Assembly (NCBI GenBank): GCA_003224755.1
Contig: QHZR01000075.1
Coordinates: 27,170 to 63,381, forward strand
Reading direction: 5' to 3'
From: Acidobacteriota bacterium
GTDB lineage: Bacteria > Acidobacteriota > Terriglobia > Terriglobales > Acidobacteriaceae
DNA length: 36,212 nt
Position 1 is the stretch's first letter. Each line of letters starts with the position of its first letter. This document shows positions 962 to 15,462 of the stretch, one piece after another. The position numbers and the translations under genes were made by a program. The notes beneath the pieces are model-generated. The model saw only the letters and a program-made list of their open reading frames with translations. It made no database searches and was not told the origin of the DNA.

Positions 962-2344
962 ATGAGTCAGAGACGCAAGAAACAGAAACGTGCTGGTCAA
1001 GGTGGTGGTGCAGTTCCCAGTCTCAGTTGCATCGAGCCCAATGCAGCAGGAATCGATGTGGGCGCGACCGAGATTTTCGTGGCCGTCCCGCAGGACCGAG
1101 ATCCTAGCCCGGTTCGCAGTTTTGAGACTTTTACCGAGGATCTGCAGCGGCTGAAAAACTGGCTACAGCAATGTGGCATCACTACCGTAGCCATGGAGTC
1201 CACCGGAGTGTACTGGATTCCGCTGTTTCAGATTCTAGAGAAGGCGGGCATGGAAGTGTGTCTGGTGAATGCCCAACATGTTAAACACGTGCCCGGACGC
1301 AAGAGCGACGTAATCGACTGCCAGTGGCTGCAATACCTGCACTCGGTGGGGCTGCTGCGCGCCTCGTTCCGGCCGGAAGAGCGGATTTGCGCCATCCGTT
1401 CGTTGCTCCGTCACCGCGACAGTCTAGTGCAAATGGCCGCTGCGCACGTGCAACACATGCAGAAAGCACTGACCCAGATGAATCTACAGTTGCATCACGT
1501 TCTCAGTGACATCACCGGGCAAAGCGGGCTGGCCATTCTCGACGCCATCTTGGCGGGAGAACGCAATCCCGCAGTTCTAGCTCAATTGCGCCCCGCGCGA
1601 GTGCAGGCGAGCGAAGAGATCATCACCAAATCACTGGTGGGAGACTATCAGCGGGAACATCTATTCACCTTGCGGCAGTCCTTGCAGGCCTATCGTTACT
1701 ACCCAAGCTTGATCACCGCCTGCGACCAGGAGATTGAGGAACAACTGCAGAACCTGGACAGCCGAACTCCTCCTGATGCATCCCCCTTGCCGCCGGAGCG
1801 CTATCCCCACCGGCCACGCAAGAACGAATTTCGCTTTGACATGCGCAGCGAACTATATCGGATTTACGGCACAGATCTGACAGCCATCCCCTCCATCAAC
1901 GCGCTTACCGGTTACACCGTCCTGGCCGAAGTGGGTACGGATTGGTCCAAGTTTCGAAACGGGGATGCTTTTGCTTCCTGGACGTGCCTCTGTCCCCAAA
2001 ACAAAAAGAGCGGAGGTAAGATTCTCTCTGCCCACACCCGCAGGAGCGCGAGCCGGGTGAATCGCGCCCTGCGCTTGGCCGCCCAGACCCTAGAAAGGAG
2101 CACCTCTTACCTAGGCGCTTACTATCGAAAAATGCGTGCCCGCCACGGAGCCCCCGCGGCCATCACGGCTGCAGCCCATAAACTCGCGCGCATCATTTTC
2201 CATCTGGTCACCACAAGAGAAGCTTATGACGAAAGTCTTTTCGCCGCAGAAGAGCAACGTCAGCGCAAACGAATGGAAAACAAACTCAAACGTACCGCCA
2301 AGCAGCTAGGTTACCAACTAATTCCGTTGCGGCAAACTGCATAG
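962..2344 (+). CDS. IS110-family transposase (DEDD/serine recombinase)
   Basis: A 460-residue protein, slightly long for the family. The N-terminal RuvC-like DEDD domain shows D32 (AGIDVGA), E79 (AMESTGVYW), and D116 and D119 (GRKSDVIDCQW). A helical linker spans roughly 150-265. The C-terminal domain (about 300-415) carries the conserved block around CPQNKKSGGK, in which S350 is the likely catalytic serine. In characterised family members the protein binds a bridge RNA and recombines target and donor DNA through the DEDD and serine sites. All key residues are present and the frame is intact, so the enzyme could be active. Start chosen from the AGGAGG at 951. It is read in the same direction as the candidate RNA upstream. 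Confidence 0.93.
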   Translation: MSQRRKKQKRAGQGGGAVPSLSCIEPNAAGIDVGATEIFVAVPQDRDPSPVRSFETFTEDLQRLKNWLQQCGITTVAMESTGVYWIPLFQILEKAGMEVCLVNAQHVKHVPGRKSDVIDCQWLQYLHSVGLLRASFRPEERICAIRSLLRHRDSLVQMAAAHVQHMQKALTQMNLQLHHVLSDITGQSGLAILDAILAGERNPAVLAQLRPARVQASEEIITKSLVGDYQREHLFTLRQSLQAYRYYPSLITACDQEIEEQLQNLDSRTPPDASPLPPERYPHRPRKNEFRFDMRSELYRIYGTDLTAIPSINALTGYTVLAEVGTDWSKFRNGDAFASWTCLCPQNKKSGGKILSAHTRRSASRVNRALRLAAQTLERSTSYLGAYYRKMRARHGAPAAITAAAHKLARIIFHLVTTREAYDESLFAAEEQRQRKRMENKLKRTAKQLGYQLIPLRQTA

Positions 2345-2411: not shown

Positions 2412-2612
2412 CCGTAGTCGAAGGACCTGCTGTTTGCGTGCCCCATCCGAGGCGCTTCAGCTGATTCCCACACGCGACCTCGCCGGTCCTCTTCTTACGC
2501 GAAAATCTTCACCGACCCAGAAGAACGTTTACCTACCGAGGTTCGTCTCCAAAGCCCAATCCCTAAAGCACAAAGCCGCTTTTGTTGCTGGAAGGTCGTC
2601 ACTCGGCTGCGC

Positions 2613-2618
2613 TACAAT
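2613..2618 (+). promoter_or_regulatory. Possible -10 box of the Oar-like receptor
   Basis: TACAAT in the context GCTACAATCT lies 44 bp before the receptor ATG. No convincing -35 hexamer sits at 16-18 bp spacing, so this is only a candidate. The rest of the spacer 2413-2661 shows no gene; the reading frame is open from 2434 but that part has no ribosome binding site and no protein-like features. Confidence 0.3.
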
Positions 2619-2661
2619 CTGTGACCGGCATCAATCAATTCTCCATTCGCAAGGAGCCGTC

Positions 2662-5600
2662 ATGAAAACGCGGTTGAGTGTCCTGCTCTGGTTGCTGCTC
2701 TTTTCGACTTCTTTGTTGGCGCAAACTTTCCGTGGGACAATTCTCGGCACCGTTATCGATCCGCAAGGCGCAGTTGTGGCCGGCGCAAAAGTCACCGTTC
2801 ACAACGTGAACACCGGACTCGAACGCACCACACAGACCAGCGCTGATGGCAGCTACTCACTGCCTGAGCTTCCAATCGGCACCTATACGGTCACGGTGAC
2901 ACAAAGCGGCTTTCAGACCGCAGTCACCAGCAACGTCGCCGTGAACGTGGCGGCCGAAAGGCGGGTGGACGTCGTCTTCAGGACTGGCAAAGTCTCCGAA
3001 ACGGTCGAAGTCTCCGGCGAAACGCTGCCGTTGGTGGAAACCACAAACGATACCTTAGGCGGGATCTTGACCCAAGACACCGACAAGGACTTGCCCATCA
3101 ATGGTCGCGACTACACCAAATTGATCTACCTGAATCCGGGTGTTGCCGGTTCGCCTGATCAGATTACCGATTCTCCCGGATCATTCGGCGAGTTCTCAAT
3201 GAATGGCGCGCGGGGACGCTCGAACAACTTCTTACTCGACGGCACCGACATGAACGACGGCTATCGCAACAATCCCGCAATCAACGAAGCGGGCGTGTTC
3301 GCCACACCAGCAACCATTCTGCCGATTGATGCCGTTTCCGAAATGAACGTGTTGTCGAATTACAAGCCTGAATACGGAAGGAACGGCGGCGCTATCGTCA
3401 ATATCGTGACAAAGAGCGGAACCAACGCACTGCATGGAAGCCTGTTCGAGTACTTCAGGAACAATGCGCTCGACGCTCGCAATTACTTCGATAACGCCCC
3501 TGCCCCGAAAGCTCCATTTCACAACAATCAGTTTGGCGGTTCGGTGGGTGGACCTATCGTCAAGGACAAAACGTTCTTCTTTTTGGATTATGAGGGCCAA
3601 CGCGAAAACGTAGGAGTGGTGTCGCTGGATTGCGTGCCTACGGCGGCCTTCATCCAACAGGCGACTGCGACGGCTTTGGCGTCTCCGAGCGGTCTAAGTC
3701 CCGTCGGGCAGAAGCTGCTGGATTTTTTTCCGCACAACCCCGCGAATTATATTCCGGGCATCGCCGCGAGCGATTCCGGCTGTTTTAATGCTCGCAATCA
3801 GTTCGCTCCTGACTACATTGCGAACGCGCCCTCATTCAACAATCTAAGCAGCGTGATCGCGAAGATTGACCACACTATCAATAGTCACAATAACCTAACC
3901 GGTCGCTACTTCTTCGGCGACAGCACACAGCAGTTTCCGCTCGCGCTGAACGCCACTGGCGGCCAGCTGCCTGGCTTCGACACCGTTACCCCCACCCGCG
4001 TTCAGGTCGTATCTCTTTCTTTAGTCAGCGTACTCTCGCCAACCACGGTGAACGAGCTTCGATACGGTTGGAATCGCTTTGCGGAGGGATTCTTCCCGCA
4101 GGACCAGAATTTCGATCCCAGCTCGATCGGGCTCTGCAATGTGCCGGTCACGGCATCGAGCTGCAGTTCTTCCGGTCTGCCCATCGTTCTCGTATCGCCG
4201 ACACCAACTGGAGCTTCTGGATTTTTCTCGCAACTCGGAGCCACCTCAGGAGATCCGCGCCAACGCGTGGACACGAACAACCAGCTCCTCGACAGCTTCT
4301 CCTGGAAGATGAACAAGCACGATCTGAAGTTTGGCTTTGAATTTCGTCGGACGAGTATTCAACAGCGATTTGATAAGTATTCACGCGGACGGATTAGATT
4401 CAATACACTTGCCGACCTGCTTCAAATGACGCCGCAGCTTCCTTCCCAATCGGGATTTGGAGTTTTTAACTACAGCGGAAACACGCTGCGTCACACTCAC
4501 CAAAACGGCATCGGCTTCTACGCTCAGGACGACTTCCGCCTGACGCCGAGGATCACTCTGAATTATGGCTTGCGCTGGGACTACAACGCCCCGGTTGCGG
4601 AGAAGGACCATCTCTTTTCGGATTTCGTTCCGACCTCGGCGACGGCTGGGAATCTCATTCAGGTTGGGCCTGGTGGTCTTTCGAATCTCTACAACCCCGA
4701 CCACAAGGACTTCTCGCCGCGGGTCAGTGTCGCGTGGGATGCCACGGGTAAGGGAAAAACTGTCATTCGCGCGGGATACGGTCTTTTCTTTGACTCCTGG
4801 TCCCAGGATATGGCTCTCGGTCATCTGCCCTATCCCACGTTCTACGCGCCTGGACCAGCCTACAACCCGATCGGTCCCGCTCCGGTACAGATGGGACAGC
4901 TCAATCCAGCCGCGGTGGATGGCAACGGAGCATACATTGCGAACACACCGCTCTATGATGTCCCCGGTTGCTCATTCGAGTGCGACATTTTCTCGTTCGA
5001 TCGAAACATCAAAACGCCATACATCGAGAATTACAACCTGAATATTCAGCAACAGATTTCCAATAAGGTAGTGCTGCAGGTTGGCTACGTGGGATCGCAA
5101 GGACACCGGCTATTGCGATTCTTCGATATCAATCAGCCGAGCCAGGCGACCATTGCGTCAGAAGATCTGGCTTGCAATTGCATCAACGACGTCAGCGTGT
5201 CTCGTAACTATGGTTTTCCGAACGGCGCGTTCTACATCTTCCAGCAGAACTCTACCGGCAGGTCCAATTATCACTCCCTCCAAACCAGCCTGCATGTGAA
5301 CAACTACCACGGTTTCATGTCCATCGTGAATTATGTGTGGTCGAAGTCTTTGGACAACTCCAGCGATGGCGAGGATTTCGTCGTAAACGCGGCGCAGCCT
5401 CAGGACAGCAACAGTCCCGAACGCGAATACGCGCGCTCGAACTTCAATGTTCCACATCGTTTCGTCTGGATTGCGGGCTATCAATTCCCAAAGATGTCCG
5501 GTTCGTGGCCGCGGCTGACGAGCGGATGGGGAGTCGACAGCACGATTACTCTGCAAAGCGGCCAGCCCTTTACGCTTAACTACAATTTCGAGGACGACTT

Positions 5601-6123
5601 CAGCGGTGGCGGCGATGGCTTTGATCGCCCCGATGTTGTCGGTCCAATCGCTTACGACAAGCACAACCCATTCAATTACCTGCAACTAAGCTCGTTTGCC
5701 ATGCCGTGTACAGAAGCGGCCGGACAGTTCTCTGGCTTTGCCTCCGATTGCATTCCGGGTACGCGTCACTACGGCAACCTGGGAAGAAACTCTTTAGAAG
5801 GTCCGACCTTCAAGCAGTGGGACCTTGCAATTTATAAGAACACCGCCATCAGCGAACGCCTTTCAGTCCAACTCAGGGCGGACTTCTTCAACCTTCTGAA
5901 TCACCCAAACTTTGCGAATCCCGAACTGCCGGCGTTCATCTCTGATCCTGCGGCAAACATAAACCTGAGTTGCGGGTGCGGTTTCGTGCAGGGTCCGAAT
6001 AATCGGGAAGTTGGAAACGGCGCGCTTGCAATCTCTGCCACCGGCGACGTTGGAATCGGCAACCCATTCCTCGGTGGCGGCGGGCCGCGAGGAATTCAGT
6101 TGGCGGCAAAATTTACTTTCTGA
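2662..6123 (+). CDS. Oar-like TonB-dependent receptor with N-terminal regulatory domain
   Basis: A 1153-residue outer-membrane protein. The frame is open further upstream, but the start at 2662 is chosen because AAGGAG lies five bases before it and a signal peptide follows at once (MKTRLSVLLWLLLFSTSLLA). After cleavage comes a carboxypeptidase-regulatory-like Ig-fold domain (about 24-105), then a plug domain (about 115-245) with DLPINGRDYTKLIYLNPGV and NGARGRSNNFLLDGTDMND, then a long beta-barrel. The chain ends RGIQLAAKFTF, with the terminal aromatic residue expected for BAM-inserted barrels. These Oar/SusC-like receptors are hugely expanded in Acidobacteriota and are thought to import polymers or chelates or to act in secretion; the substrate cannot be told. 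No SusD partner is adjacent. A strong terminator follows. Confidence 0.92.
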   Translation: MKTRLSVLLWLLLFSTSLLAQTFRGTILGTVIDPQGAVVAGAKVTVHNVNTGLERTTQTSADGSYSLPELPIGTYTVTVTQSGFQTAVTSNVAVNVAAERRVDVVFRTGKVSETVEVSGETLPLVETTNDTLGGILTQDTDKDLPINGRDYTKLIYLNPGVAGSPDQITDSPGSFGEFSMNGARGRSNNFLLDGTDMNDGYRNNPAINEAGVFATPATILPIDAVSEMNVLSNYKPEYGRNGGAIVNIVTKSGTNALHGSLFEYFRNNALDARNYFDNAPAPKAPFHNNQFGGSVGGPIVKDKTFFFLDYEGQRENVGVVSLDCVPTAAFIQQATATALASPSGLSPVGQKLLDFFPHNPANYIPGIAASDSGCFNARNQFAPDYIANAPSFNNLSSVIAKIDHTINSHNNLTGRYFFGDSTQQFPLALNATGGQLPGFDTVTPTRVQVVSLSLVSVLSPTTVNELRYGWNRFAEGFFPQDQNFDPSSIGLCNVPVTASSCSSSGLPIVLVSPTPTGASGFFSQLGATSGDPRQRVDTNNQLLDSFSWKMNKHDLKFGFEFRRTSIQQRFDKYSRGRIRFNTLADLLQMTPQLPSQSGFGVFNYSGNTLRHTHQNGIGFYAQDDFRLTPRITLNYGLRWDYNAPVAEKDHLFSDFVPTSATAGNLIQVGPGGLSNLYNPDHKDFSPRVSVAWDATGKGKTVIRAGYGLFFDSWSQDMALGHLPYPTFYAPGPAYNPIGPAPVQMGQLNPAAVDGNGAYIANTPLYDVPGCSFECDIFSFDRNIKTPYIENYNLNIQQQISNKVVLQVGYVGSQGHRLLRFFDINQPSQATIASEDLACNCINDVSVSRNYGFPNGAFYIFQQNSTGRSNYHSLQTSLHVNNYHGFMSIVNYVWSKSLDNSSDGEDFVVNAAQPQDSNSPEREYARSNFNVPHRFVWIAGYQFPKMSGSWPRLTSGWGVDSTITLQSGQPFTLNYNFEDDFSGGGDGFDRPDVVGPIAYDKHNPFNYLQLSSFAMPCTEAAGQFSGFASDCIPGTRHYGNLGRNSLEGPTFKQWDLAIYKNTAISERLSVQLRADFFNLLNHPNFANPELPAFISDPAANINLSCGCGFVQGPNNREVGNGALAISATGDVGIGNPFLGGGGPRGIQLAAKFTF

Positions 6124-10739: not shown

Positions 10740-12431
10740 TTAGAAGCTGAACGCCACGCCGCCCCGCACAGCCCGCGCCGACTGTACTAGATACACCGTC
10801 CGCCCATCCTGGCTGAACACCGGCACATAACCCTGCGCTAGCAGGTTGCGGACTTCAAGCACCACGTCCATGTGTCCAGGCAGTCCGCCGGTTCCAGGAA
10901 CCGGCTGGCGGAAGAAGAAATCGAGGAATGGATCTGCCTGCCCGGCCGAGGCGTTGAACATGTCCACGGGAGTAAGAGTGCGGCCACTGGTCCAGCCGTA
11001 AGAAGCCATCCAGCGCGTCTTGGTGCCTGGAGTCGTACCCGTCAGCTTGGCCGAAATCGCATGACGATTTCTGGTGACGCTCTCGCCGCGCACGTCTTCG
11101 AAATTATGCTGCTCCCCATCCTTCAGGTCCAGCGCGCCACCATAGCTATAGTCCATGGTGGCAGTGATGTCGGAAGCCAACTTCTGCTCCAGCACCAGCC
11201 TCATGCCCCGGGTTTCAAGATCGCGTCCCTGGTAGGTGAACGTTCCCGAGTAAATGTCCGGCAGTACCTCGCCATTGATCGAGGCAAATTCACCGACGCC
11301 GGTGAGTGCAGGGTCGCCTATCCGGTCTGAATAAACCGCCGCCTGCATGCTGGTCTTGCCTTCGCGATGTGAAAACGCAATTTCCTGATGATGGGCCCTT
11401 TCCAGTGCCGGCATGAATCCCGCCATGCTGACTCGTGGGTCCGTCTCGCTCAAATCCGCCGGGGAGGTTTCGAAGCCCTTTTGCGCTCTGCTGTCCGGAC
11501 GTGATGTCGCGTAGCGATATTCAATCATAGTATCCGGAGACAAGTGAGCTGAAACAGAGCCAAAGGGACGAAACGCAGTCACTTTGCCCAGGAACTGGAT
11601 CGTCTGCAATTCACTGCCGAACTTCAATTCCAGCACGTCGCCGAGAGAAACACTGTCCCCCACGCTCAACGCCAGCGCCTGCAATTCCGCGTTATGCTGC
11701 CCAATCATCAACGGTGACGTCAGCTTCCGCAGCGTGAAAGCGATTTCGGGAGTAGATCCATTCGGGATCTGGTGTTTGAACGATGCCCGCACAACCGCGT
11801 TCGGAACGCTCGCACCGTATCCAACATTTCCGTTGAACGTTAACGTCCCGGTCGAGAGCAGCGACTTCTCAACCCGGAAACCTGTGCTCATATCGGAGAT
11901 CGCTCCGAACCCGTTCGCAGGCGCCCCGGCAACGAAGGAGAGCGTGCCCTTCAAGTCTCGCCTCGATTGCTCGCCCTTGGCTATAACGACAGGAGAGCCG
12001 TCAGGCAAAAGACGCAACACTGGCCGGGTCGAAGCCGATCGCAATACCCAGTCCCAATCCCCGTCGTCGGTGCCTTCGCGGCGTGGGGCAAACTGAATGA
12101 CGTCGAAAATGGTCGAAAGGGTAAGGTTCAGCAGCACTCCAGCCCCCGCCTTCAGACCGATTTTCTCGCGGAGCGTAGGTAGGAAAGAAGGGGCAGAAAC
12201 CTTGATACTGTACACGCCCGGAATAAGTCCGGAGGCGCTGAAGAACCCTTTTTCGTCGGTGAAAACTCTGAAGTTCTCGAACGCCGATCCCAACACTTCA
12301 ACCACTGCGCCCATCTGCGGTGCACCCTCAGCATTGCGGACGAAGCCCGAAATTGTGGCCGACCGTTCTGCGCACCACCCCGGCAATACCACACCGAGCG
12401 CAATTACGATCAGGCCGAGCTTACGCAGCAT
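10740..12431 (-). CDS. Outer-membrane barrel with N-terminal regulatory-like domain
   Basis: A 563-residue exported protein: signal peptide MLRKLGLIVIALGVVLPGWC, then a carboxypeptidase-regulatory-like Ig domain (about 24-110; SGFVRNAEGAPQMGAVVEV, GLIPGVYSIKVSAPSF), then beta-rich repeats ending in VRGGVAFSF with a C-terminal phenylalanine, typical of outer-membrane barrels. Unlike the Oar-like receptor at 2662, no TonB plug domain is recognisable and the protein is half the length. It starts 17 bp after the stop of the GWxTD gene, with GAGG six bases before the ATG, so the two are almost surely co-transcribed. Function unknown; an outer-membrane partner of the GWxTD protein is the simplest inference. 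Confidence 0.75.
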   Translation of the reverse strand: MLRKLGLIVIALGVVLPGWCAERSATISGFVRNAEGAPQMGAVVEVLGSAFENFRVFTDEKGFFSASGLIPGVYSIKVSAPSFLPTLREKIGLKAGAGVLLNLTLSTIFDVIQFAPRREGTDDGDWDWVLRSASTRPVLRLLPDGSPVVIAKGEQSRRDLKGTLSFVAGAPANGFGAISDMSTGFRVEKSLLSTGTLTFNGNVGYGASVPNAVVRASFKHQIPNGSTPEIAFTLRKLTSPLMIGQHNAELQALALSVGDSVSLGDVLELKFGSELQTIQFLGKVTAFRPFGSVSAHLSPDTMIEYRYATSRPDSRAQKGFETSPADLSETDPRVSMAGFMPALERAHHQEIAFSHREGKTSMQAAVYSDRIGDPALTGVGEFASINGEVLPDIYSGTFTYQGRDLETRGMRLVLEQKLASDITATMDYSYGGALDLKDGEQHNFEDVRGESVTRNRHAISAKLTGTTPGTKTRWMASYGWTSGRTLTPVDMFNASAGQADPFLDFFFRQPVPGTGGLPGHMDVVLEVRNLLAQGYVPVFSQDGRTVYLVQSARAVRGGVAFSF

Positions 12432-12448
12432 TCATGACCTCAAACCTG

Positions 12449-14218
12449 CTATTCCACAGCGAAGGTCGCCGACGGATCCAGTGTCTGCTTAGAAATATTA
12501 TCGTTCACTTTGATCTGAATACGATACACCCCAGGATCAAGCTTTGCAGATGCTACTGCCTTTTGCAACGTGACCTGATCCCCAAGATTGCCCATCGTGT
12601 CCGAATAATCTACGGCATGCACGACAGCCTTATTACTCGCCGCGTTCACAATGTCATACTCGAAAGTCGCCGAGGGCTTGTGGGTCTTTTGATCCACCGC
12701 AAGATTATAGACCTGCATCCAGAAATTCACCTTCTGGCCACGCTTGAATACCACAGGCTTGCCGTCGGACGGTGAAACCCGAGGACGCACCTTAGTGGTA
12801 CCGATTACAAACATCCCTGTGCCAATACTATTCGTTGGCACCGGTTGCACTTCGTCGGCCACGATCAGTGTGGAGCTCGCCAGCTTGTCTTCATCAAACG
12901 CCGGAACAATAATACCCCGGCTCCAGGTTCCCATCCGATCACCGTTCACGTCCTTCACCACCACGTCCAGCTTGTAACGGCCTGCACGGAGCGGCACCGC
13001 CTTCCAATAAATTTTGGAATTCTCGACTTCCTTCGGCAGTAGTTCTGCCGGAACGTCCGCAGTTACGGTGTCTTCAAAGGTCTGCGCGACTTTGCCCGTA
13101 AGGGTCGAGAGCCGGCCGAAGATGTTGACTACCCCATGCTGCACGCCATCTTTATCAGCGAACGTAATATCGCGATTTTTGATCTGTACTGTCACCGGCA
13201 CCAGAACCGTATCGTTCGTAATTCTGACAAAGTCAGTGCGAACGTCGAAAGGCATCAGGTTGTAGGAAATGTGAGTCCTGACCACCTCTTCCAGATCCTT
13301 GAATTTCACCGGCGGTGCTTGGTTGAGTTTTGAAAACTGTTCCAGGCGATCAAACTCTTTGCTCTGGTTGTATGATGCCCCCATCGGGCCGTTTCCGATG
13401 CGCTCCAGGCCATTGCCTCCCGTAAAACGGTCTGCTTTGTTGGCCCTCCCCATCTGTTCGTACATCGTCAAGCCCGCGTTCGGGACCATCAGCAGTGCGT
13501 CTTTCTTACTGCGATCCATGGTCATCTCATACGCGCCGCACATGCAGTCGTCCACGAATTCAATAATTACTTCTTCCCCGATTCCATCAATGTGCCGGTA
13601 ACGCCAATCCTCAAAGGGATAGGTGGACGTCTCTCCACCACCTTCTTCCATGGGTCGTTCATAGCTGCCACCTGAAGGATGAGATTCGACCTCATCCGGA
13701 GGTCCATAGACAATGTAAATCCGGCCACGATCAGTCATCCACCCCGGCTTCCCTGCGTAGTAATGTTCATTGGCATACTCTATCCGGCGGTAATGCTCGT
13801 CCTTGAATGCGTTGTCTTCGCTGTCGGGATCTGGATTGCGTCGGTCCCAGAATGACTCGATGAACTTCTCGCGCTCTTCCTCGTTGGAGAGCTGCATGAA
13901 AGCCTTGCGCTCATCGTCGGTGATGATCCATCGCACGTCTTCGTTAAGCCACTTCTTGTCGTCCACACTCAGTTCATGCTTAAAGGACTTCGCGTTCTCT
14001 TTCCTGCGCTTCTCGCTGATGGGTCGCTTAAGCGGATCGCCAGATTGGTCTTCTGTCTGGTCCACCTTTGCCGGGCTGGCCTGAGATGGGTCGGCCGCCG
14101 AACTCCCAGCCTTGTCCTGTTGCGCAATCGCCTCAGGTGCCACCGTCAGGCCAAAGATTGGCAGACCGAGTAGCACGATTGGCGTAGCGAGGCGACTCAA
14201 CAATTCGGAACGGGACAT
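12449..14218 (-). CDS. GWxTD domain-containing exported protein
   Basis: A 589-residue exported protein with an N-terminal signal sequence (LLSRLATPIVLLGLPIFGL, cleavage probably after AIA). A charged, disordered stretch (40-80) is followed by the GWxTD domain: FIESFWDRRNPDPDSEDNAF, then GKPGWMTDRGRIYIVYGPPD with G159-W160-M161-T162-D163. The C-terminal half is beta-rich, with Ig-like segments (VPLRAGRYKLDVVVKDVNGD, LDPGVYRIQIKVND). The domain is common in Acidobacteriota and Bacteroidota and its function is not known. It is the first gene of a likely two-gene operon with the barrel protein downstream. AAGGAG lies 11 bases before the start, a rather long spacing. Confidence 0.85.
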   Translation of the reverse strand: MSRSELLSRLATPIVLLGLPIFGLTVAPEAIAQQDKAGSSAADPSQASPAKVDQTEDQSGDPLKRPISEKRRKENAKSFKHELSVDDKKWLNEDVRWIITDDERKAFMQLSNEEEREKFIESFWDRRNPDPDSEDNAFKDEHYRRIEYANEHYYAGKPGWMTDRGRIYIVYGPPDEVESHPSGGSYERPMEEGGGETSTYPFEDWRYRHIDGIGEEVIIEFVDDCMCGAYEMTMDRSKKDALLMVPNAGLTMYEQMGRANKADRFTGGNGLERIGNGPMGASYNQSKEFDRLEQFSKLNQAPPVKFKDLEEVVRTHISYNLMPFDVRTDFVRITNDTVLVPVTVQIKNRDITFADKDGVQHGVVNIFGRLSTLTGKVAQTFEDTVTADVPAELLPKEVENSKIYWKAVPLRAGRYKLDVVVKDVNGDRMGTWSRGIIVPAFDEDKLASSTLIVADEVQPVPTNSIGTGMFVIGTTKVRPRVSPSDGKPVVFKRGQKVNFWMQVYNLAVDQKTHKPSATFEYDIVNAASNKAVVHAVDYSDTMGNLGDQVTLQKAVASAKLDPGVYRIQIKVNDNISKQTLDPSATFAVE

Positions 14219-14718
14219 AAAGATGGGTACTCCTTGGGACGTGCCCGGGGCATCAATATTTTATGTCTTGCCGAACCGGAACACAAGAGATCCTGGATTT
14301 TAAGCAGCATAAGGGCCGAAAAACCCCTAACTGCCAAGATTCCGTATACCTGTCGAATGGTTGTCTCAGGATTGTCAAAAGCTGCACAGCCTCTGAGAAA
14401 TGTGGGGACAGCCGCCCTCGGCTGTCCGGTCGAGCGCAGCTCGAAACCAAACCGAACCAGCTTTCGGGGGTAGTGCTCCGTTGCCGAAATTCACCTCCCC
14501 GCCGCACTCACCTCTCTGCCGCTTACGCTATATAATCGCAAAGCCCCTGCTTCAGGAACTTTTCCCAGCGACCCGTCGTACCTTCCAGTGCGAGCTTGCG
14601 GACGTTACGGCAAAGGGCAGACGGGGCCTGATATTTTCTAACGAATGCCCGTGTGGTTCGTCCAAGAGCACAAGGGACTCGGAGCGTTCAGTTGTCCCAG
14701 TTTGAGCAGGAGAAAAGC
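14219..14718. other. 500-bp spacer between divergent genes, no gene seen
   Basis: The spacer separates the GWxTD operon (leftward) from the ABC ATPase (rightward), so it should hold both promoters; I could not place either with confidence. It contains the 14406-14427 hairpin. Short open frames cross it on both strands, but none has a ribosome binding site or a protein-like composition. The frame of the ATPase is open from 14653, but its likely start is 14719. Confidence 0.6.
14406..14427. repeat. Perfect 9-bp hairpin
   Basis: GGACAGCCG (14406-14414) and CGGCTGTCC (14419-14427) form a perfect stem with a 4-nt loop CCCT. It lies within GTGGGGACAGCC sequence and has no T-run. It looks like a REP-type repeat unit rather than a terminator. 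Confidence 0.7.
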
Positions 14719-15462
14719 ATGGCCACTGCAGAAGTAATCAACATCTCCCAACCCCACGTGTCGGCTCCTCCCGAGTCCTGCATGATCTTCACTTCGGACC
14801 TCTGGAAGACCTACGACATGGGATCCGAGCAGCAGGTTCACGCTCTTCGTGGTGTCAATCTTCAGATTCGCCGCGGCGAATACATCGCCATCATGGGGCC
14901 TTCGGGATCAGGCAAATCAACCCTGATGAACCTGATCGGCTGCCTCGACTCTCCCAGCCGGGGCCAGTACTGGCTCAACAGCCAGCTTGTCAGCGAGCTT
15001 GATGACGACGAACTGGCCCGAATTCGCAACAAGGAAATCGGCTTCGTCTTCCAAACGTTCAACCTGCTGGCCCGCGCCACCGCTCTGCACAATGTCGAAC
15101 TTCCGCTGATCTATGCCGGAATGCCCGCATCCGAGCGCGTCGAGCGGGCCAAGGACGCCCTCACCGCCGTCGGCATGGAATCGCGCATGAGCCACAAGCC
15201 CAACGAGCTCTCCGGAGGACAGCGGCAACGCGTCGCCATCGCCCGCGCCCTGGTGAACCGGCCGTCAATCATTCTCGCCGACGAGCCCACCGGCAACCTC
15301 GACTCGCAGACCGGCAACGAGATCATGGCCCTCTTCGACCGCCTGCATTCCGAAGGCAACACCATTGTTCTCGTCACCCACGAGCACGACATCGCCGAGT
15401 ACGCCCACCGCATCGTCTTTATTAAGGATGGCGTGGTGGAGCGGGATGAAGTGAAGAGATAA
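14719..15462 (+). CDS. ABC transporter ATP-binding protein, LolD/MacB type
   Basis: A 247-residue ATPase. Start at 14719 ([10 protein letters not shown]) is chosen because GCAGGAG lies just before it. Walker A is GPSGSGKST (60-68), the Q-loop is VFQTFNLL (Q112), the signature LSGGQRQR begins at 164, Walker B is [12 protein letters not shown] (184-195), and the H-loop histidine is H221 (VTHEHD). The LNRIGCLD-like [15 protein letters not shown] segment is typical of the LolD/MacB/FtsE group, which couples to FtsX-like permeases for lipoprotein release, efflux or mechanotransmission. No permease gene is present on either side; downstream lies a gene-poor, repeat-bearing stretch, so a partner may have been lost or may be encoded elsewhere. 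Confidence 0.88.

Follow-up and report, generated by a model that had tools for sequence, protein, structure and literature searches.

Acidobacteriota abound in soil, and the biology of their envelope is, to our knowledge, little studied. Among outer-membrane proteins, the barrels of TonB-dependent transporters have 22 strands, and the OprD/Occ and AlgE channels are 18-stranded. Sensor kinases of ComP topology carry a PDZ domain after the first transmembrane segment (TM), followed by a polytopic membrane part and the histidine kinase. PDZ kinases are known as the ComP type, with HisKA_3 named in a figure legend (PMC6411480), and a second paper reports that the PDZ domain of AlgW binds the C-termini of mislocalised outer-membrane proteins (PMC8545111). 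Our literature searches on GWxTD terms returned no relevant paper, and none was found by a search on Acidobacteria with the GWxTD domain.

The two genes at issue lie on the minus strand of a 36,212-nt stretch of acidobacterial DNA, the whole of which we call the window. The upstream gene (12449..14218) encodes a protein of 589 aa, predicted to be exported, that scores 125.2 bits against TIGR04514 (cut-off 28) and 62 bits against PF20094 (cut-off 26.9). It begins with a hydrophobic, signal-peptide-like N-terminus; the GWxTD domain spans residues ~88–208 and contains the literal motif as PGWMTDRGR (GWMTD at residues 159–163), and C-terminal to it are beta-rich, beta-sandwich-like segments that are probably Ig-like. 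This protein is the single member of the GWxTD family found in its own genome. Its mature form has only two cysteines, both in a CxC motif (DCMCG, residues 225–227) shared by 79 of the 91 rows for paired-type GWxTD proteins and by 0 mature proteins among 22 outgroup rows. Searches of solved structures by sequence gave nothing convincing for it. Modelling the GWxTD protein and its neighbour as one read-through chain gave a poor model (pLDDT 55, pTM 0.34), which speaks neither for nor against the complex proposed in the original prediction. Among the PDB hits of this linked model were pilin chains and multi-domain Ig-like chains, all with poor rmsd, so that we draw no GWxTD fold from it; the same search matched a carboxypeptidase D domain at rmsd ~3.1 over 84 columns. 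A defence-system reading was rejected, as neither protein had a PADLOC match.

Between the GWxTD stop codon and the ATG of the next gene are 17 bp (12432..12448, minus strand), with a GAGG sequence resembling a ribosome-binding site shortly 5′ of the ATG. The downstream gene (10740..12431, minus strand) encodes 563 aa, of which residues 1–25 form a hydrophobic, signal-peptide-like N-terminus (12354..12431). Residues 26–106 (12114..12356) match the carboxypeptidase regulatory-like domain CarboxypepD_reg (PF13620) at 53.4 bits against a cut-off of 32.3, as do all 52 of the 52 family members compared. Up to E = 1 the window protein gave no other Pfam match, and among its 52 relatives no plug or TonB barrel family, and no OprD family, was matched at E 0.01. 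An AlphaFold model built from 80 sequences (mean pLDDT 67, pTM 0.59) has the regulatory domain well modelled at residues 4–84 (pLDDT ~88), a disordered linker at 90–136 in place of a plug, and 18 long strands, by our count, at mature residues 139–541 (10743..11954), ending in a C-terminal Phe within a conserved C-terminus. Because no plug family matches and the model holds 18 strands without an ordered plug, the term plug-less barrel is supported, at the moderate confidence of the model. The original prediction had described an exported protein with a GWxTD domain, a barrel with a regulatory domain and no TonB plug, and a 17-bp gap with a ribosome-binding site, and each of these descriptions agrees with what we found.

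The solved structures closest to the barrel model, in a comparison limited to the chains ranked highest by Foldseek and hardly covering the CarboxypepD_reg domain, are OprD/Occ channels and AlgE, at Z ~16–18 (maximum 18.0, to Occ), rmsd ~3.5–5 and sequence identities of 5–12%. Searches of solved structures by sequence recovered the CarboxypepD_reg fold only.

Conservation of the pair had been set beforehand as one of its tests. In a first sample of 61 genomes (the window's own and 60 relatives; classes and families in this and the following counts are kinship labels, and the window's class is called Terriglobia after the titles of named loci), comparison of coordinates placed the GWxTD gene directly 5′ of the barrel gene on the same strand in 50, and fetched stretches added three more (G027, G048 and G029). 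Five genomes, where a gene falls at a contig end, could not be scored (G001, G005, G042, G049 and G050), leaving the pair in 53 of the 56 decidable relatives; the exceptions have the barrel only (G010), the GWxTD gene only (G019), or neither, yet with the kinase described below present (G025). The pair recurs in 25 of 27 further genomes of the class, 24 of them read by eye from match listings and one (G251) seen on its own stretch, the two exceptions having the GWxTD gene only (G328) or neither gene (G169). Among the best 80 of 306 named loci, 78 have the GWxTD gene directly upstream of the barrel, with one gene in broken frames in four of these, and the other two begin at a contig end. These three samples overlap partly and are not independent. 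At the 95 loci where the gap between the genes was measured, its median is 27 bp; it is at most 50 bp in 86 and negative (overlapping frames) in 13. The pair is conserved under each of the eleven family labels that the 61-genome set covers in the class. With its order kept in 53/56 relatives and 25/27 further genomes, the pairing is more than chance; it is not obligate, since a single partner is present in three genomes and both are missing from two.

The surroundings of the pair vary. Upstream of the GWxTD gene, in the window (14653–15462, plus strand) and in relatives, are divergent genes for a MacB-type ATPase and an HlyD protein. Farther off in the window, an IS110-type transposase gene (962–2344, plus strand) lies beside a gene for a 1229-aa Oar-like TonB-dependent protein (2434–6123, plus strand). 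At the close relative L063 an Oar-like gene stands directly after the barrel, and in comparison with that locus the block of the window from the Oar-like gene to an E1 dehydrogenase gene appears inverted. The pair in a record titled Ignavibacteriae (L121) looks like any other acidobacterial copy, and the assembly is possibly misnamed.

Outside the class the two genes mostly part company. We picked 34 outgroup barrel loci among the matches listed, taking open frames of ~560–635 aa, and their barrel homologues measured 561–632 aa; the GWxTD gene was directly 5′ of the barrel in only one of them (L181). At 20 outgroup GWxTD loci, taken from the top of the match list (one locus of each type served to check the families), the neighbour was TatC in 10, LptF/LptG in three and otherwise other genes. 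In this set (L211–L230) GWxTD genes adjoin TatA/TatC or LptF/LptG; the GWxTD gene of L230 was not displayed by the gene calling used for the outgroup neighbourhoods. Some genomes hold up to 15 GWxTD matches.

The barrel has a different constant companion across the phylum. A histidine kinase gene lies directly downstream of it at 31 of the 34 loci picked among the matches listed from other classes; two of the other three stop at a contig end (L180 and L196), and one is truly without it (L185). At 26 of these 31 loci the kinase is followed by a sigma-54 response regulator, composed of a receiver, a sigma-54 activator domain and a Fis-type domain (a gene counted as a kinase at a profile score of 400 bits or more and as a regulator at 250 bits or more). 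The kinase consists of a first TM, a PDZ domain, several further TM segments, and then GAF, PAS, HisKA and HATPase domains; the position of PDZ between the first TM and the polytopic membrane region was found with PDZ_6 and hydropathy in three proteins (L251, L188 and L181), and the dimerisation domain is HisKA (PF00512) rather than HisKA_3. GWxTD, barrel, kinase and regulator genes stand in a row at ten loci (L181, L232, L235, L237 and L240–L245), L181 belonging to another class and the other nine to the window's class, in families different from that of the window. The original prediction had cast the pair as a two-gene outer-membrane complex; the pairing is kept in the class, but two genes are too narrow a frame, the most widespread neighbour of the barrel in the phylum being the PDZ kinase.

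The kinase is matched at E ≤ 1e–90 in 59 of the 61 genomes and is directly 3′ of the barrel in 16 of the 61, though in none of the 37 that belong to the window's family (compared by eye). There the kinase and regulator genes sit apart from the barrel, upstream of genes for MlaE and an ABC ATPase, and on another contig of the window's own genome (L251, 5847–11930) they are directly upstream of this couple. After the regulator, the 12 family loci where that gene is complete have MlaE and the ATPase (10), the ATPase alone (one) or neither (one); L266, whose kinase is hidden by an overlapping false frame, was uncounted, and the regulator of L267 is cut by the contig end. On a tree of 70 barrels the neighbourhood state changes 11 times, vs. 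32.2 for shuffled labels, with kinase neighbours on both sides of the midpoint root; we infer that barrel and kinase genes became neighbours long ago and that the window's family has since lost this arrangement.

Before the kinase gene there is a sigma-54-like site (TGGCA...TTGC), scoring at least 15 in 17 of 31 outgroup loci, where 0.1 were expected from shuffled sequences and 0 were found on the reverse strand, and at least 14 in 13 of 18 other loci. Before the GWxTD gene such sites are not enriched (21 of 83 loci at scores of at least 12, vs. 26.8 expected), and before the 34 outgroup barrels the counts are not convincing: eight at 13 or above vs. 4.0 expected, two at 14 or above vs. 1.1, and none at 15 or above. 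Regulation of the GWxTD–barrel pair by sigma-54 therefore lacks support, with no enrichment before GWxTD and none clear before the barrel. The site before the kinase, with nothing comparable before GWxTD or barrel, leads us to think that the kinase–regulator pair probably has its own promoter, perhaps autoregulated, and that the GWxTD–barrel pair is probably a separate transcript. Genome-wide, the sigma-54 pattern gave 14 matches in the window's own genome vs. 14 in the control, and a comparison of 13 loci revealed no inverted repeat shared by the sequences upstream of the kinase promoter.

Our preferred reading, held tentatively, is that the pair is operon-like and acts in the envelope within a larger acidobacterial unit of GWxTD protein, barrel, PDZ/GAF/PAS histidine kinase and sigma-54 response regulator, the kinase monitoring the barrel. 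The pair would supply the periplasm with a GWxTD protein and the outer membrane with a plug-less, 18-strand barrel whose N-terminal regulatory domain would be periplasmic, and the two would cooperate in the envelope, perhaps in direct contact. The kinase would sit in the inner membrane with its PDZ domain probably facing the periplasm, monitor the barrel or its state of assembly, and switch on sigma-54 genes, its own operon included. Counting against this unit are the poor linked model, the genomes that lack one partner or both, the separation of kinase and barrel in all 37 genomes of the window's family, the different neighbours of GWxTD genes outside the class, and the sigma-54 counts before the pair and in the window's own genome. 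The idea of PDZ sensing comes from the report that the AlgW PDZ domain binds C-termini of mislocalised outer-membrane proteins (PMC8545111). We take the set for an envelope unit not described before, and think that its PDZ kinase probably monitors both GWxTD protein and barrel. A bolder version, to which we lend little credence, is a phylum-wide two-component sensor where the periplasmic PDZ would read the conserved C-terminus of a dedicated barrel, the GWxTD protein would gate or escort the barrel, and the sigma-54 output would adjust outer-membrane lipid transport through MlaE and its ATPase. For the GWxTD domain these results provide a partner that is conserved and a signalling context open to testing, and the unit of barrel and PDZ kinase is retained through the phylum. 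As the pair is kept across the class and the barrel elsewhere in the phylum adjoins a gene-switching sensor, these genes may together form a surveillance system for the cell surface that has not been described.

The strongest competitor, which we still regard as unlikely, would have the barrel be an OprD/AlgE-like channel for uptake or export, the GWxTD protein a periplasmic helper that delivers or holds its substrate, and the kinase a mere neighbour. The top structural matches are indeed specific channels, and the beta-sandwich-like segments in the C-terminal part of the GWxTD protein and the LptF/LptG or TatA/TatC neighbours of GWxTD genes in other classes point the same way, but likeness at such low identity tells little about substrate, and a mere neighbour fits poorly with a kinase retained at 31/34 outgroup loci. 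We find it improbable that unrelated envelope genes simply stay together in a region that rearranges little: the divergent genes for HlyD (48/61 loci) and the MacB-type ATPase (47/61) are likewise retained, but the pair has a median gap of 27 bp, with overlaps, and is kept over all eleven sampled family labels while other neighbours change. Least probable to us is that the pair is an accessory, helping in the window's family to build or dock the large Oar-like TonB-dependent protein whose gene usually comes after the barrel. An Oar-like gene, mostly of ~1100–1200 aa, does lie 3′ of the barrel on the same strand (median 288 bp) at 63 of 71 loci (leaving out eight that end too early and L119, with a broken barrel frame) and the window has its own copy (2434–6123), but that copy is not directly downstream of the barrel, the kinase takes this place in other classes, and Oar-like genes are so numerous that the cluster used is broad.

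Returning to the tentative unit of pair, kinase and regulator, its parts compare with described systems as follows. The window's GWxTD protein belongs with those defined by TIGR04514 and PF20094, exceeding both curated cut-offs and having the literal motif, and differs in that its type is tied to a barrel gene and has the CxC motif. With TonB-dependent transporters and Oar-like proteins that carry CarboxypepD_reg, the barrel protein shares this N-terminal domain, an outer-membrane barrel and a C-terminal aromatic residue, but it is plug-less, about half as long, and has 18 predicted strands rather than 22. OprD/Occ channels and AlgE, the top structural matches of its model, have the same strand number, whereas the window's barrel lacks an OprD Pfam match, has CarboxypepD_reg and is encoded in linkage with genes for GWxTD proteins and kinases. 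The neighbouring kinase resembles the ComP type in the order of its parts, the first TM being followed by PDZ, a polytopic membrane region and the histidine kinase, and differs in its HisKA (PF00512), GAF and PAS domains, its NtrC-type sigma-54 regulator and the adjacent outer-membrane barrel. Finally, sigma-E-type sensing by DegS/AlgW (PMC8545111) is alike by analogy only, in that a periplasmic PDZ domain would read the state of outer-membrane proteins; PDZ binding is carried over here by that analogy, and a kinase stands in place of the protease.
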